Of a stretch of DNA of 25,695 nucleotides, positions 1 through 9,395 are shown one piece after another. Below the pieces are notes generated by a model, which made no database searches, was not told the origin of the DNA, and was given only the letters and a program-made list of their open reading frames with translations. Origin of the DNA: an uncultured Archangium sp. (lineage in GTDB: Bacteria > Myxococcota > Myxococcia > Myxococcales > Myxococcaceae). Position 1 is the first letter of the stretch. Each line of letters opens with the position of its first letter. Location of the stretch: positions 1 through 25,695 of the forward strand of contig CAMLFP010000029.1 of the NCBI GenBank assembly GCA_946479335.1, in the 5' to 3' direction. A program made the translations under genes and the position numbers.

Positions 1-2
1 GC

Positions 3-161
3 TTCATCTCGCTGGTCGACGCGGCGACGCTGCAGGTGGTCGACTCCGGCATCTGCCTCGGGCACCCGCCCGCCGACGAGGAGCTGACACTGGAGAGCCT
101 GCCTTCCGTGATTCGCGAAGCCATCGATACCGACGCGCTGGTGATTCTGCGCCATGCGTGA
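3..161 (+). CDS. 3' end of a gene with an E2-like Cys motif (partial)
   Basis: The window opens inside this gene; 52 residues and a TGA stop are visible. The fragment contains Asp-Ser-Gly-Ile-Cys-Leu-Gly (Cys at visible residue 18), followed by a Pro-rich turn, acidic residues and an amphipathic stretch. This resembles the active-site Cys region of E2 ubiquitin-conjugating enzymes, where 'G-x-I-C-L' precedes the post-catalytic helices, and of the E2-like proteins of prokaryotic Ubl operons. The stop overlaps the start of the JAB gene by 8 bp, so the two are very probably co-transcribed and translationally coupled. The E2 reading is an inference from a short motif plus context; the N-terminal fold is outside the window. 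It could instead be an unrelated protein of the same operon. Confidence 0.5.
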   Translation, partial: FISLVDAATLQVVDSGICLGHPPADEELTLESLPSVIREAIDTDALVILRHA

Positions 162-498
162 GGTCTGCTTTCTCATCGCAGGCGACGTGGTGGTGTGGAG
201 CGACGAAGGCGACTCCGCCATCGCCCTGCCCGACAAACGCGAACGCTGGGAGGCCATCTGGAAGCACCGCGCGGAGCTCACGGAGATCGCCCACTCGCAC
301 CCCGTCGGCCCGCTGGCGTTCTCGCACGAAGACTTGACCACCATGGAGGCGCTCGACTCCGCGCTGGGCAAGGCGCTGCGCTACTCCGTCGTCGCGCCGA
401 CCGGCGTCATCGCCCGCGTGGGAACCGCTGAAGAACACGTGACGCCCGAGCCGGCGTGGGCCGCGCGCCTCCGCGTTTCGTCAGGGATGCACCCGTAG
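154..498 (+). CDS. JAB/JAMM-family metalloprotease
   Basis: A 114-aa protein carrying an exact JAMM zinc motif, H-x-H-x7-S-x-x-D: His47, His49, Ser57, Asp60. This is the metal site of Mov34/MPN/PAD-1 isopeptidases such as Rpn11 and its bacterial relatives. The usual upstream catalytic Glu cannot be placed with certainty; Glu32/Glu33 are near the expected distance. At about 114 aa it is a minimal single-domain JAB protein. In prokaryotic Ubl operons such proteins process the Ubl C terminus or remove it from targets. The ATG at 154 overlaps the upstream stop by 8 bp and is followed by the Ubl and E1-like genes, which fits that role. The family call is firm; the exact substrate is inferred. Confidence 0.85.
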   Translation: MREVCFLIAGDVVVWSDEGDSAIALPDKRERWEAIWKHRAELTEIAHSHPVGPLAFSHEDLTTMEALDSALGKALRYSVVAPTGVIARVGTAEEHVTPEPAWAARLRVSSGMHP

Positions 499-516
499 CG
501 CTGTCTAGAGTCCGCG

Positions 517-524
517 AAGGGAGG
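517..524 (+). promoter_or_regulatory. Strong Shine-Dalgarno site of the Ubl gene
   Basis: AAGGGAGG lies 5 nt before the ATG at 530, a near-consensus site. The genes on either side show weaker sites, so the small Ubl may be translated at a higher level than its partner enzymes, as expected for a consumable modifier. Confidence 0.6.
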
Positions 525-529
525 CACGC

Positions 530-760
530 ATGACCATCTTGAACATCACCTACAACGGCCTGTCGGCGGACTACCCGGTCGAGCTCGACTCGCACCTCAA
601 CGACGCGGACCTGCGCCGCATCGCGGTGGAGGTCGTGCGCTCCGGCGGCGTGCCCGGCCTGCAGATCGCCAACCTGCGCGACGACGCGTTCACGAACTAC
701 GTCGTCGACCGCTTCAACGAGCGCATCTACCTGCGCCCGAAGGTGCCGTTCGGGAGCTGA
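530..760 (+). CDS. Small ubiquitin-like (beta-grasp) protein, putative
   Basis: A 76-aa protein, the same length as ubiquitin. It opens with a beta-hairpin-like pattern (Thr-Ile-Leu-Asn-Ile-Thr-Tyr, then Ala-Asp-Tyr-Pro-Val-Glu-Leu), continues into a helix-forming stretch (about residues 24-38) and ends in two short beta-like segments (Tyr-Val-Val-Asp-Arg-Phe and Ile-Tyr-Leu-Arg-Pro). This order is compatible with a beta-grasp fold. The C terminus is Val-Pro-Phe-Gly-Ser, not the usual diglycine; removal of the last Ser would expose a Gly. It lies between the JAB and E1-like genes, and its stop is 3 nt before the E1 start. The Ubl role rests mainly on size and operon position. It also resembles in size and placement the protein C of PRTRC systems. 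Confidence 0.65.
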   Translation: MTILNITYNGLSADYPVELDSHLNDADLRRIAVEVVRSGGVPGLQIANLRDDAFTNYVVDRFNERIYLRPKVPFGS

Positions 761-763
761 AAA

Positions 764-1336
764 ATGCGTGTCATCTTCTGCGGCGTTGGGGCGCTGGGCT
801 CCACCGCCGCTGTCTTCTGCCGAAACCTCGACGCCGAGCTGACGTTCATCGACTTCGACCGCGTCGAGTCGAAGAACCTCCTCGCGCAGGCGTACGTGAA
901 GCAGTCGCTCGGCAAGAACAAGGCCGAGGCGCTCAAGCTGCAGCTCTCGAACTTCTACGGCAAGAAGAGCGACGCGTTCGGCGTGAAGCTCACCGCCGAG
1001 AACATCGACGCGCTGTGCGGCGGCGCCGACCTGCTCGTCGACTGCTTCGACAACCTGAAGAGCCGCGCGCTGCTCTCTGACTTCGCGCGCAAGACGAACA
1101 AGGCGCTGGTGCACGCGGCCATCTCCGGCGACGGCACCTTCGGCCTCATCCGGTGGGACGAGCGCTTCACGCCCGACGCTGAAGACACCGAGGGCCAGGC
1201 GACCTGCGAAGGCGGCGAGCACCTGCCCGTCATCGGCGCGCTCGGCACGGCGCTGGCCGGCATCATCCGCGACTACGTGAAGAGCTCCGTGAAGCGCGAC
1301 GTGATGGTGACCCTCAACGCGCTGACTCCCACGTAG
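764..1336 (+). CDS. E1-like/ThiF-family adenylyltransferase
   Basis: A 190-aa Rossmann-type protein of the ThiF/MoeB/E1 superfamily, which adenylates the C terminus of a ubiquitin-like partner. The nucleotide-binding loop Gly-Val-Gly-Ala-Leu-Gly (residues 7-12) is at the very N terminus. It is followed by Phe-Ile-Asp-Phe-Asp-Arg-Val-Glu-x-x-Asn (28-38), the acidic/Asn signature of the family, and Asp-Cys-Phe-Asp-Asn (93-97). Cys148, just before a Gly-rich helix (Val-Ile-Gly-Ala-Leu-Gly), matches the position of the catalytic or crossover Cys of ThiF/E1 proteins. It is shorter than the usual 240-270 aa, and no paired CxxC zinc motifs are visible. It starts 3 nt after the Ubl stop and is the last gene of the run. 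Confidence 0.88.
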   Translation: MRVIFCGVGALGSTAAVFCRNLDAELTFIDFDRVESKNLLAQAYVKQSLGKNKAEALKLQLSNFYGKKSDAFGVKLTAENIDALCGGADLLVDCFDNLKSRALLSDFARKTNKALVHAAISGDGTFGLIRWDERFTPDAEDTEGQATCEGGEHLPVIGALGTALAGIIRDYVKSSVKRDVMVTLNALTPT

Positions 1337-2709: not shown

Positions 2710-3852
2710 TTACGCTGACAACAACCCCATTAACACGTCACCGTAGAGAGCCAACCGCTTCTGACCAAAATACGGTACGCGCTCCAGCGCTTCCGGAGAG
2801 GCTGGCGCGGTGCTCGCCAGCTCTTCGACCAGGGCGTTCGACAGCACGACTGAAGGCGTCACCTTGCGCTCCAGCGCCGTCTTCTTGCGCCACTCGAGGA
2901 GCGCCTCTTCGCGCTTCTTCTTCTTCGGGTCGCGGTCGCGCTTCTCTTCCGACGGCTTCAGCTCGCCCGACGCGACGGCGGCGGTGACGCGCGCGATGAC
3001 GGAGAGGATCTCCTCGCCGTGCTCCCGCGCCACCTGCCCGCGCACGCCCGCCAGCTTCACCATCGTCTTCACGTCAGACGGGAACTTCGTCGACAGCTCG
3101 CCCAGCGCCATGTTCGACAGCACGCGGCCGGTGGGCACGTCTTCCTTCTCGGCCCACTGGAGGCGCAGCCGGTGCAGCTCCTTCGCGATGTGCGTGGCGG
3201 CGGTGAACTGCTCGCGCGAGAGCCCGGTGCGCGGCAGCTTCGGCGTGAAGTCGGCGGCGTCGGGGCGCGCCGCGGCGTCGTCGCACATGCGCTGGCAGTC
3301 GAGCAGCACCTCTTCCAACACGCCGGCGGTCTGACACGCCTCGCGCACCCAGCGGCCCACATCGCACAGGTAGCGCACGTCGTCGGCGATGTACTCGCGC
3401 AGCTCCGGCGGCAGCGGGCGCTTCGAGAAGTCGGCCTGCTGGTGCTCTTTCTTGAGCGTCTGGCCCAGCTTCTCCTTCACCAGGTCGGCGAGGCCCACCT
3501 TCGGCCAGCCCAGCAGCGTCGCCGCGCGGTGCGTGTCGAAGAGGCCTTTGACGCGCACGCCTTCTTCCGCGAGGTACTGGAGGTCGCCGCCCGCGGCGTG
3601 GAAGAACTTGGTCACCGAGTCGTCGGCGAACATCGCCTCGAGCGAGCGCGGCGAGACGCCCGGCTGCAGCGTGTCGAGCAGGAAGATGTCGGCGTCGGTG
3701 CCGAGCTGCACGAAGCACAGCTTCGCGCGGAAGTGGTGCATCGAATCGGCTTCGACGTCGACGGCGACCTCCCGCGCGGGGGTCAGCGCCGAGGCGACCT
3801 GGGGCAACTGCGATGAGTCACCGACATCAACGACACGCTCGGGAAAAGACAC
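2710..3852 (-). CDS. rnd: Ribonuclease D (DEDDy 3'-5' exoribonuclease)
   Basis: A 380-aa protein matching the RNase D layout: an N-terminal DEDDy exonuclease domain followed by HRDC-type helical domains. Exo I is Asp32-Val-Glu34; exo II is His-Ala-Ala-Gly-Gly-Asp90-Leu; exo III is Tyr154-x3-Asp158-Val. These residues bind the two catalytic metals. Residues about 210-290 form the first HRDC-like domain; a Lys/Arg-rich linker (about 302-315) leads to a second near the C terminus. The enzyme trims 3' ends of tRNA precursors and other structured RNAs in the cytoplasm. It is divergent from ttcA across 48 bp, so two RNA-metabolism genes share this intergenic region. Length is close to that of E. 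coli RNase D (375 aa). Confidence 0.92.
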   Translation of the reverse strand: MSFPERVVDVGDSSQLPQVASALTPAREVAVDVEADSMHHFRAKLCFVQLGTDADIFLLDTLQPGVSPRSLEAMFADDSVTKFFHAAGGDLQYLAEEGVRVKGLFDTHRAATLLGWPKVGLADLVKEKLGQTLKKEHQQADFSKRPLPPELREYIADDVRYLCDVGRWVREACQTAGVLEEVLLDCQRMCDDAAARPDAADFTPKLPRTGLSREQFTAATHIAKELHRLRLQWAEKEDVPTGRVLSNMALGELSTKFPSDVKTMVKLAGVRGQVAREHGEEILSVIARVTAAVASGELKPSEEKRDRDPKKKKREEALLEWRKKTALERKVTPSVVLSNALVEELASTAPASPEALERVPYFGQKRLALYGDVLMGLLSA

Positions 3853-3900: not shown

Positions 3901-4719
3901 GTGGAAGAGCTGAACCGCCTCGAAAAATCGCTGCTCCAGCACGTCGGCAAGGCGGTGGCCGACTTCTCGCTGATCCAGGAAGGCGACCGCATCATGGTGG
4001 CCATCTCCGGTGGGAAAGACTCGTACACCATGCTGCACCTGCTGCGCCGGCTGCAGCAGCGCGCGCCGGTGAAGTTCGAGCTCATCGCGGTGAACCTCGA
4101 CCAGGGCCACCCGGGCTTCCCCGCGCAGATGCTGGAGGCGTGGCTCCAGAAGAACGAGTACCCCTACCGGCTGCTGAAGGAAGACACCTACAGCATCGTG
4201 TTGGACAAGCTGAAGCCGGGGCAGACGCAGTGCAGCCTCTGCTCGCGCCTGCGCCGCGGCATCCTCTACACGGCGGCGGTCGACATGGGCTGCACCAAGA
4301 TCGCGCTCGGGCACCACCGCGACGACCTCATCCACACCTTCCTGCTGAACCAGTTCTTCGCGGGCACCACCGCGACGATGCCGCCCATCCTCAAGAGCAA
4401 CGACGGCCGCAACACCGTGATCCGCCCGCTGGCGTACGCGCCTGAAGCCGACATCGCGCGCTTCGCGGAGCTGATGAAGTTCCCCATCATCCCCTGCGAC
4501 CTGTGTGGCTCGCAGGAGAACCTCCAGCGCAAGCGCGTGAAGCGGCTCGTCGACGAGCTTGGCAAGGAGATCCCCATGTTGCGCAGCTCGCTGCTGTCAG
4601 CCATGGGCAACCTGCACACTTCTCACCTGCTCGACCAGAAGCTGTGGAAGCTCCCGGTCGAGGGAGACGAGAAGCTGGTGCCGTTGAAGACGAAGACGGA
4701 GACCCCCGATGCCGCTTGA
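3901..4719 (+). CDS. ttcA: tRNA 2-thiocytidine(32) synthetase
   Basis: A 272-aa ATP-dependent enzyme that thiolates C32 of certain tRNAs. The PP-loop Ser-Gly-Gly-Lys-Asp-Ser is at 36-41. Two CxxC pairs, Cys111/Cys114 and Cys199/Cys202, match the Cys residues that hold the iron-sulfur cluster in TtcA. Gly-His-His-Arg-Asp-Asp (137-142) is also typical of the family. The start is a GTG at 3901; no in-frame ATG precedes the PP-loop at a sensible distance. The 3' end overlaps the TerB-domain gene by 11 bp, so the two are probably translated from one message. Length is close to the roughly 310 aa of E. coli TtcA, with a shorter C terminus. Confidence 0.92.
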   Translation: MEELNRLEKSLLQHVGKAVADFSLIQEGDRIMVAISGGKDSYTMLHLLRRLQQRAPVKFELIAVNLDQGHPGFPAQMLEAWLQKNEYPYRLLKEDTYSIVLDKLKPGQTQCSLCSRLRRGILYTAAVDMGCTKIALGHHRDDLIHTFLLNQFFAGTTATMPPILKSNDGRNTVIRPLAYAPEADIARFAELMKFPIIPCDLCGSQENLQRKRVKRLVDELGKEIPMLRSSLLSAMGNLHTSHLLDQKLWKLPVEGDEKLVPLKTKTETPDAA

Positions 4720-7869: not shown

Positions 7870-8201
7870 CGCCCGGCCTCATGCCACAGCCGAACGCGGG
7901 AAGAACGTCGCCGCACGAAAACCCGAGGCGGCATTCGGCGACGCGCGACCTCTGCTCCGCCCGGCACGATGGCGCCGCGGCGAGATCGCCCGACCTCCAA
8001 GCGCAGCCGCGCGATCCGCCGGAGGGGCGCATCGAAGACGGTCCCACCGCTTGAATTCGTTGATGTCAGCGCCCGGCCCACCGTCGAACACCGAGCCCGC
8101 GTCGCTCGCGCTGCCCGCGTCTTCTGCGCCCGCGCCGCCACGCGGTCGCGCGGTCGCGCGCAACCTCGACCAACCAGCCACGATGGGCGCCGCACGCGCG
8201 C
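7870..8201. other. Gene-poor stretch with a copied fragment of the hydrolase linker
   Basis: No convincing gene is seen in these 332 bases. Minus-strand reading frames stay open but give Arg/Ala-rich protein without a recognisable start or family. The middle part repeats DNA from the Asp/Ala/Gly-rich linker of the hydrolase at 8202-9395 (see the repeat entry). The promoter of the M28 peptidase gene may lie near 7870-7950, but no clear -35/-10 pair can be picked. Confidence 0.6.
8065..8140 (-). repeat. Displaced copy of the hydrolase linker sequence
   Basis: Bases 8065-8089 match 8397-8421 over 25 nt, and 8102-8124 match 8473-8495 over 23 nt, both exact by eye. On the minus strand the fragment reads as an Asp/Ala/Gly linker of the same type (Glu-Asp-Ala-Gly-Ser-Ala-Ser-Asp-Ala-Gly, then Ser-Val-Phe-Asp-Gly-Gly). 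It lies beyond the stop of the hydrolase and is joined to unrelated sequence on both sides, so it looks like a recombination or slippage remnant. Confidence 0.7.
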
Positions 8202-9395
8202 TTACGACGCGACGCCCCGCGCACTGCGCCGTCTCAGCAGCAGCACCGTCAGCGACAGCGCCGCGGCCCACGCACCGGCCGAACCACACCCGCACCCGGC
8301 GGGCGGAGGCGCTCCCACGTCGGTGCCGCCATCGGCAAGGCTCCCCGCGTCGACCTGCGGCGCGCCGGCGTCAGCGTCGGGTGGCGCGCCCGCATCGTCA
8401 GCGCCCGGCCCACCGTCGAACGCCGCGCCCGCGTCGTCCGCGCCCGCGCCCCCGTCGGTCACCGCGCCCGCATCGCTCGCGCTGCCCGCGTCTTCAGGGC
8501 CCGCGCCGCCATCGAACACACTGCCCGCGTCGTCGACGCTCCCGGCGTCGGGCATGGCGCCGCAGCCGCCGAGCTGGAGGTCGACGTTGGCGACGACTCC
8601 GGCCGTCGCGTCGGCCTGCGCGGTGGCCTCGAGGCACGGCATCGTCACGCCGTTCAAGAAACGGTCGAAGAACGCCAGGCCGTAGTTCCTGAACAGCGCC
8701 TGTCGCGCCTGCTGCGTCGAGCCGCCACACGCCGCGGTGCAGGTGGTGCTCAGCGGGTCTTGCGGCTCACAGTGCGTGGCGCCGACGACCTTCAGCTTCC
8801 CCTTCAGGCCGGTGAGGTCGTCGAACCAGGGCAGCGAGTTGTTGGACGAGTTGCAGGTCGACGACTCCGCCGCGAGGAACAGCGTGGGCGCGGTGACGCT
8901 TGAGGTCGCCGCGGCGCCCAGCCCGTTGTTGTCGACCGCGTCGAAGAGCAGCAGCGCATCCACCGCGTGCCGCGACGCCGCCAGGAACGCCGAGAGCCCG
9001 CCCGCGCTGTGCCCCGCGAGGCCGACCCGCGCGGGGTCGATGGTGCTGACGCCGCGCTCCTGCTCCATCGCCGCCCAGAGGATATCGGCGTTGCGCGAGT
9101 GGTCTGTCGCGCCGCACTGCAGCGCCAGCAGCAGCGGGAACTGCGGCACCACCACCACCACGCCCTTCGCCGCCAGCGCGCGCGCAAACACCTCGTGGTT
9201 GTCCTTGCTGTTCTGGAACCCGTGCCCGATGCCCACCAACCCGAAGGGGCCCGCGCCCGAGGGGCGGTACACGTCGACGTCGTAGCTGGCCGGCGTCGAC
9301 CCCGTGCAGTTGGGGAACGCCAGCGTGACCGTGGTCTTCGAGACCTGCGCCAGCGCGCACGTCGCAGAGAGGCTCAACAGGAGGAAGAGTCGCAT
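8202..9395 (-). CDS. Secreted alpha/beta hydrolase with MYXO-CTERM anchor
   Basis: A 397-aa protein. Residues 1-16 are a signal peptide (hydrophobic, ending Ala-Leu-Ala-Gln). Residues about 20-275 form an alpha/beta hydrolase domain with nucleophile elbow Gly-His-Ser130-Ala-Gly-Gly, an oxyanion-region Gly-His-Gly-Phe (57-60), candidate acid Asp152 and candidate His208. The layout resembles chlorophyllase/PETase-like and dienelactone-hydrolase-like esterases. Residues about 281-362 are a low-complexity Asp-Ala-Gly repeat linker. The end (about 367-397) is a MYXO-CTERM tail: Gly-Cys-Gly-Cys-Gly, one hydrophobic helix and Arg-Arg-Arg, used by myxobacteria to sort proteins to the cell surface. 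AAGGGGAG lies about 7 nt before the ATG. The substrate is unknown. Confidence 0.85.
   Translation of the reverse strand: MRLFLLLSLSATCALAQVSKTTVTLAFPNCTGSTPASYDVDVYRPSGAGPFGLVGIGHGFQNSKDNHEVFARALAAKGVVVVVPQFPLLLALQCGATDHSRNADILWAAMEQERGVSTIDPARVGLAGHSAGGLSAFLAASRHAVDALLLFDAVDNNGLGAAATSSVTAPTLFLAAESSTCNSSNNSLPWFDDLTGLKGKLKVVGATHCEPQDPLSTTCTAACGGSTQQARQALFRNYGLAFFDRFLNGVTMPCLEATAQADATAGVVANVDLQLGGCGAMPDAGSVDDAGSVFDGGAGPEDAGSASDAGAVTDGGAGADDAGAAFDGGPGADDAGAPPDADAGAPQVDAGSLADGGTDVGAPPPAGCGCGSAGAWAAALSLTVLLLRRRSARGVAS

Follow-up and report, generated by a model that had tools for sequence, protein, structure and literature searches.

What system do four short genes at the edge of a myxobacterial contig belong to, and what does that edge conceal? 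The genes open a window of 25,695 nucleotides from an uncultured Archangium sp. (contig CAMLFP010000029.1) and all lie on the plus strand: the C-terminal end of an edge-truncated protein that we call X (3-161; translation FISLVDAATLQVVDSGICLGHPP...LRHA*), a JAB/JAMM metalloprotease of 114 aa (154-498), a candidate ubiquitin-like protein (Ubl) of 76 aa (530-760), recognised by its homologues and its position beside E1, and a short E1, a ThiF/MoeB-like adenylating enzyme of 190 aa (764-1336). A first-pass annotation, made from the letters alone, had described a compact ubiquitin-like conjugation set with further members hidden by the left edge. The spacing it gave, an 8-bp overlap (154-161), a 31-bp gap (499-529) and a 3-bp gap (761-763), was confirmed, and relatives supplied the hidden members, namely a Ro60-like gene and the rest of X. 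We regard it as fairly probable that positions 3-1336 are the 3' end of a conserved Ro60-like–X–JAB–Ubl–E1 cassette, encoding a Ubl cascade that acts on a Ro60-like/Y-RNA particle. The observations behind this reading are gene content and order, the Ro60-like architecture, a covarying RNA element, linkage to tRNA genes with a strand bias, conserved candidate residues and presence on viral contigs.

The cassette is not a chance arrangement, because protein searches returned 1917 E1 homologues (E<=0.001) and 1162 Ubl homologues (E<=1); the latter also bear out the 76-aa frame at 530-760 as a gene, which precedes E1 in relatives. A scan with one genome per GTDB species yielded 62 loci, to which one viral contig (L063) was added, giving 63. 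The 62 are titled nearly all Myxococcota; the other titles, as recorded, are Virgisporangium (L056 and L059), 'Comamonas' (L058) and a 'Terriglobia' metagenome-assembled genome (MAG; L052), and L062, in another MAG, is a weak match (33%). In full, the cassette encodes a ~588-aa Ro60-like protein with a von Willebrand factor A (vWA) domain, X (~312 aa), JAB, Ubl and E1, in this order, with all five genes contiguous in 13 of the 63 loci. The Ubl gene lies immediately 5' of E1 in 60 of the 61 places where both are complete, the window included, at a distance of -13 to 73 bp, the exception being L015 (5.6 kb). The truncated frame of the window is 62.7% identical to the X C-terminus of locus L042. 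Searches of whole genomes found the Ro60-like gene once in 21 of 22 Ubl-E1 genomes, the miss being that of L041, and among 187 genomes drawn from the phylum of L042's genome, that genome included, 4 carried the Ro60-like gene and 12 a Pfam TROVE gene. Among the 45 clusters of open reading frames listed, no flanking gene beyond the cassette recurs in more than 14 of 61 loci, and some of these genes are antisense frames. A plasmid-borne origin was rejected, since plasmid searches with the Ubl (E<=1e-5) and with the Ro60-like protein (E<=1e-20) returned nothing.

What is the large protein at the head of the cassette? A fold search with its AlphaFold (AF2) model (pLDDT 79, pTM 0.48) returned Ro60 as each of the top five PDB matches, over 558-619 columns and nearly the whole length, and the VIA alignment to Ro60 covers 18-563. 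A MIDAS-type DKSGSM motif is present (alignments A3 and A5), and the model predicts the architecture of Ro60/TROVE proteins, HEAT-like helical repeats plus a vWA domain with MIDAS. Whole-length hhalign against TROVE gave 93.8% probability; a split test placed this signal in the vWA half, so TROVE membership by profile was rejected and Ro60 kinship rests on the fold search. Two loci, L064 and L065, carry Pfam-TROVE genes whose upstream open frames resemble translated tRNA sequence by eye, which suggests that tRNAs or tRNA-like RNAs also accompany classical Ro60; a 44.7-bit match to the covariance model R1, described below, was found in L064.

The region upstream of the Ro60-like gene contains an element 76-160 nt long, GCGCCCG-n3-GACGAGGCC-CTACACGC ... 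GGCCTCGTC-ACT-CGGGCGC, often with a T-rich stretch on its 3' side. It encloses a predicted circularly permuted tRNA, whose arms (T-arm, acceptor-like hairpin, D-arm, anticodon-like arm) are ordered as in the Rfam YrlA consensus (RF02553). Across 12 sequences, two-sided changes occurred in 18 of 33 pairs, counted without the anticodon-like arm, and 95.7% of cells pair; no shuffle reached the observed values, and slid controls drop to 35-48%. In alignment A6, L102 and the second L042 element have coordinates assigned by hand. Of 36 non-redundant upstream regions, 23 gave a match to model R1 at most 600 nt from the Ro60-like gene; 12 of these 23 had served to train the model and 11 had not. Matches to the Rfam YrlA model stayed below its gathering score of 69 (L051, 33.4 bits, E 0.002; L104, 22.4 bits), and that of L051 lends independent support to a kinship with Y RNAs.

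The element varies in form. Minimal versions without a tRNA domain occur in L028, L081, L042 (2268-2351), L056 and L059, and the L057 element encloses an unpermuted tRNA. Beside divergent Ro60-like genes, L104 (276-943) and L107 (4563-4698) have a tRNA in normal order with a ~60-nt insert in the variable region; the one in L107 includes GGCCTACACGCA, a stretch of the Y-RNA element, which suggests that this tRNA-like gene is permuted in topology. In L056 and L059 the Y-RNA match overlaps the start of the Ro60-like frame as first drawn, and in L056 (Virgisporangium) a long N-terminal extension (2564-2690) overlaps the element at 2569-2659, so that the true start is probably downstream. No Y-RNA match was obtained in L089-L092, L094, L095, L097 and L098; several of these have a GAAAGTCATGG-type motif just 5' of the Ro60-like gene, and some a short inverted repeat there. 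A genome-wide model search, with scoring limited to 150 candidates per genome, gave at least one match in 12 of 12 genomes and more than one in 11, of which weak ones within tRNA arrays may be tRNAs. At the loci themselves, weak R1 matches inside tRNA arrays most likely represent adjacent tRNAs rather than Y RNAs. The genomes of L002, L005, L007 and L044 (G005, G192, G194, G214) carry additional Y-RNA-like copies at a distance from the Ro60-like gene, for example at G192:C1:506 kb and on G194:C808, with one in G005 upstream of a separate X-JAB; one Ro60-like protein may therefore serve several RNAs.

A close described parallel is the Rsr-YrlBA-RtcBA operon of Salmonella RNA repair, in which a Ro60-like gene also stands beside a Y RNA that has a tRNA-like domain; YrlA has been proposed as a possible competitive inhibitor of the tRNA nuclease (PMC7790460). 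Unlike that operon, the cassette has X-JAB-Ubl-E1 and tRNA arrays, its Ro60-like protein lacks a Pfam TROVE match and its RNA falls below the YrlA threshold. Neither RtcB nor RtcA was recognised among the conserved neighbours listed.

The second RNA feature is a linkage to tRNA genes. ARAGORN reported 207 tRNA matches in 23 of the 63 loci (687,243 bases), 206 of them on the cassette strand; the total includes 29 of the viral contig L063 and one match inside an X gene (L059, 4826) that is probably false. Arrays of 19-25 tRNAs start 0.4-1.3 kb past E1 in L002, L003, L007, L040 and L044, L108 has 14 tRNAs past E1 and 3 before the Ro60-like gene, and L109 extends the array of L005 by 14. In Hyalangium versicolor, 18 of the 68 tRNA matches in 13.6 Mb fall within a 2-kb block beside the cassette (contig C5), an array additional to the remaining tRNAs of the genome. 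At the Hyalangium density of ~5 per Mb, 3-4 tRNAs would be expected in the scanned bases, versus 207, a comparison that gives an effect size rather than a test, as related species are not independent. The arrays resemble the extra, near-complete tRNA sets of the Anabaena trn operon, Mycobacterium and large phages. Translational stress induces the Anabaena operon (PMC10272220), and the words 'ubiquitin' and 'Ro60' are absent from the text of that paper.

Are the same genes carried by viruses? An IMG/VR search with the Ro60-like alignment gave 8 loci, or 5 after merging those of equal scores or lengths, on contigs of up to 417 kb. Hidden Markov models built from the bacterial cassette placed X, JAB, Ubl and E1 3' of the Ro60-like gene in 5 of 5 IMG/VR contigs, a scan that left out L158, and arrays of 20, 10, 15, 34 and 31 same-strand tRNAs enclose the cassettes of L155, L156, L157, L160 and L161, respectively. 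When folded, the R1 matches of L160 (73 bits) and of L156 (66 bits) show the closing stem of the bacterial element. All five genes were also matched in the GenBank virus Rctr197k (KX853510, Caudoviricetes by its record), where 41 annotated tRNAs of a single strand surround them. The viral contig L063 holds a lone Ubl (8001-8204, ending -PFGC) inside an array of 29 tRNAs; its record, which may be a fragment, gave neither a Ro60-like nor a ThiF match. This Ubl is possibly a decoy or hijacker of a host E1. A relative of E1 (39.7% over 71% of the query) lies at 280793-281194 of LR756511.1, a 595-kb uncultured phage record. Passages of a jumbo-phage survey describe ROT/TROVE proteins with a tRNA-like partner; two other passages, which contain 'ubiquitin', are unrelated, and the term 'JAB' is absent from the survey (PMC7824862). 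Likewise, a Ro60-related protein appears in passages on a Vibrio jumbo phage (PMC7765460).

Could the company of tRNAs be functionally meaningless, with cassettes or phages simply landing near tRNA clusters? It is true that the stretches retrieved for 40 of the 63 loci contain no tRNA, and tRNA genes are common integration sites. Insertion alone fits poorly with viral cassettes nested within their contigs' own arrays, a lone viral Ubl within 29 tRNAs, strand agreement in 206 of 207 cases, a Hyalangium array that comes on top of the tRNAs elsewhere in that genome and a Ro60-like gene with a tRNA-mimic RNA of its own, and we consider such an integration-site effect very improbable.

What, then, might the remaining proteins do? 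The JAMM motif noticed in the first pass was confirmed in the JAB frame (HSHPVGPLAFSHED, HSHP-x6-S-x2-D, 292-333). HxHP-x6-S-x2-D is present in 16 of 16 JABs, the window's included, with a related motif in 7 of the 7 divergent or viral JABs found. The window protein has the HxH...SxxD of JAB/JAMM enzymes; its Prok-JAB score is just below the Pfam cut-off (22.3 vs 25 bits). The E1 is a ThiF enzyme, as had been proposed (Pfam ThiF 74.9 bits, cut-off 28.1), with the marks of that superfamily, a ThiF domain, GxGxxG (GVGALG), the Asp (DCFDN) and an invariant Cys, Cys148 (ATCEGGEHL, codon 1205-1207), the candidate thioester residue; TCxxGx(H/N)L was found in 60 of 60 E1s, the window's included, and in 6 of 7 divergent or viral ones. 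Its best PDB relatives are ThiF, MoeB (1jw9, E 6.9e-10) and Uba4, and it also resembles Cap2 E1 domains. A housekeeping ThiF/MoeB was rejected, as the best NCBIfam equivalog score was 74.2 versus 159 bits and the genes accompany JAB, X and the Ro60-like gene. PRTRC was likewise rejected (ThiF profile TIGR03736, 28.9 vs 144.75 bits).

All 62 full Ubls, those of the window and of L063 included, end in RP[KR][VT]xFG followed by a tail of 0-16 aa, and 7 further divergent or viral Ubls that were aligned share the motif. In the window it reads RPKVPFG (734-754), with Gly75 the presumed mature end and Ser76 the tail; the end is thus a single Gly, not GG. Atg8/LC3-type Ubls have a Phe-Gly end with a removable tail. 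Those proteins, like the presumed mature form of the cassette Ubl, have a single C-terminal Gly (PMC10097602). The predicted fold of full-length X (L042) comprises two OB-like barrels, helices and an E2/RWD-like domain with a conserved Cys, which in the window is encoded at 54-56 within 'SGICL'. All 14 bacterial X proteins have this 'GICL' Cys, as do 7 of the 8 divergent or viral frames; the remaining one, L106, stops before that domain. Profiles of the Ubl and of the X C-terminus gave only chance-like PDB matches, and Pfam had no family match for the Ubl or the truncated first frame, neither of which resembled any other family convincingly. A comparison of the Ubl with ThiS by hhalign (15.4 vs <=12.0 in 30 shuffles) spanned 21 columns and was not used; the ThiS set contained one wrong frame, L167. 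The first-pass interpretation is thus supported in part: the E2-type Cys that it pointed out is conserved, the E2 identity is matched weakly, and profile searches of the kind that it suggested did not establish E2 or Ubl kinship.

From these conserved residues, together with the precedent of cGAS/Cap2, for which conjugation via a single C-terminal Gly is established (PMC10097602), we infer a conjugation pathway. JAB would trim the tail past ...RPKVPFG, exposing the Gly, which E1 would adenylate before loading the Ubl onto Cys148. The Ubl may then pass to the 'GICL' Cys of X, and X, held on RNA through its OB-like domains, would join it to its target, either the Ro60-like protein or some protein or RNA associated with the Ro60/Y-RNA/tRNA particle, with JAB reversing the attachment. 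Such tagging might control what the particle does with tRNAs that are damaged or foreign, with the array as a source of replacements, and the putative physiological setting would be tRNA quality control or a conflict involving tRNA nucleases.

The most serious rival is a sulfur carrier of the Urm1/TtuB kind, in which E1 makes a Ubl thiocarboxylate that thiolates tRNAs, perhaps those of the array or the Y-RNA mimic, and conjugation is secondary. The X protein of L056 has a sub-threshold match (E 0.005, 17 bits, cut-off 21) to Asn_synthase, which we take to be a PP-loop-type family, and ThiF, MoeB and Uba4 as closest E1 structures and the tRNA linkage of the cassette would suit this explanation, as would the action of Urm1 in tRNA thiolation (PMC7911844, PMC12645042). 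Set against it are scans of cassette proteins that matched neither a thiolase nor a rhodanese, the conserved Cys within the E2-like domain of X, the single Gly in place of GG, and separate ThiS/MoaD-type genes in 8 of 8 host genomes searched; we judge it unlikely.

Bil systems (BilA-D) encode Ubl, E2, E1 and a DUB/JAB as separate genes, in an order that differs from the cassette's, and the cassette departs from them in its short E1, the OB-like domains of X, the Ro60-like protein and the RNAs. Type II CBASS (Cap2/Cap3), an E1-E2 fusion plus JAB, is similar in that the cassette has an E1, an E2-like protein and a JAB; it was rejected as an assignment, as E1 and X are unfused, a dedicated Ubl is present and PADLOC found no CD-NTase among the cassette proteins scanned, a search confined to those proteins. 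Might the cassette nevertheless be a Bil/CBASS-like anti-phage device tagging phage proteins? The kinds of enzyme are the same, E1 is similar to Cap2, and cGAS/Cap2 provides a precedent for single-Gly conjugation in passages of PMC10097602. This explanation has to contend with the carriage of the cassette by viral contigs and Rctr197k themselves and with PADLOC matches limited to generic E1-E2 models for E1 and absent for the four other cassette proteins, and it leaves the tie to RNA genes unexplained; we give it a small chance, slightly below that of the sulfur carrier.

Several observations weigh against our preferred reading of a Ubl cascade on a Ro60-like/Y-RNA particle. The window shows only the X tail, JAB, Ubl and E1, with no Ro60-like gene, Y RNA or tRNAs: no Rfam match reached threshold, and ARAGORN's single match is without a full anticodon. 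Elsewhere, VWA-X-JAB, where present in the stretch, lies 2.8-6.7 kb from Ubl-E1 (L006, L045, L058, L110, L123), and X-JAB occupies a separate genome site in Hyalangium versicolor (L002) and a Myxococcaceae MAG (L003), the two cases that refute a constant VWA-X-JAB adjacency. L106 holds only the Ro60-like protein and a piece of X within 20 kb, the L041 genome carries JAB-Ubl-E1 with no Ro60-like or X match, and MAGs L112-L117 and L119 have Ro60-like-X-JAB with neither RNA feature nearby. This looser linkage leaves our estimate unchanged because the unlinked X-JAB copy has its own Y RNA (in Hyalangium, a 91.8-bit match that shares the strand of X and lies 94 nt 5' of it). On the RNA side, 13 of the 36 upstream regions lack a clear Y-RNA match, tRNAs are missing from the 40 loci mentioned above, and the strong Y-RNA matches of the viral contigs are not directly upstream, that of L160 lying 3.7 kb 5' of the Ro60-like frame and that of L156 after E1. 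A terminase was matched in one of six contigs, that of L063, and the viral nature of the others therefore rests on the IMG/VR classification.

The proteins add further difficulties. TM-scores to the top five Ro60 chains are just 0.35-0.42, the N-terminal half alone gave no profile match to TROVE (score 22.4, with 1 of 20 shuffles reaching 23.9), and there was no Pfam TROVE (PF05731) match at E<=1 in the proteins of L042, L002 and L056, for which reason we call the protein Ro60-like and do not assign it to the TROVE family. The RWD/E2 structural matches of X are weak (UBC fold comparison), and E1 may be atypical, having NLLAQ where MoeB has NLQRQ, with loss of the Arg, and no CxxC pair. An atypical E1 and a weak E2 fold might indicate a non-catalytic scaffold, with E1, Ubl and X retained solely for a complex that they form around the Ro60 particle. 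However, even relatives with 33-44% identity retain the residues that are candidates for catalysis (E1 Cys and DCxDN, JAMM, X Cys, Ubl Gly), and we hold this possibility to be the most improbable of those considered here.

Downstream of the cassette, the window contains genes to which we assigned the names RNase D-like exonuclease (2710-3852, exonuclease and HRDC) and TtcA-like PP-loop protein (3901-4719); if these names are right, both would act on tRNA. Neither they nor a neighbouring transporter had a match in the other loci then compared.

In the literature searched we found no paper coupling Ubl conjugation to Ro60/Y RNA or to tRNA arrays, and an earlier mention is possible; a 2006 survey of prokaryotic Ubls (PMC1779556) has no mention of vWA, TROVE or 'Myxococc'. 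It is conceivable, at a little under even chances, that phages and myxobacteria share a module of a Ro60-like ring, a permuted-tRNA Y RNA, a Ubl cascade and spare tRNAs, in which the tRNA-mimic RNA steers tagging. Myxococcus xanthus carries the five genes and the RNA element together on one 19-kb contig (L019/L110), so the proposal is testable in a laboratory species. If it is true, the tRNA arrays of large phages and myxobacteria would gain a set of protein partners, modification of a Ro60 relative would have a possible prokaryotic setting, and ubiquitin-like systems might have an additional route, that of acting on RNA-protein particles.

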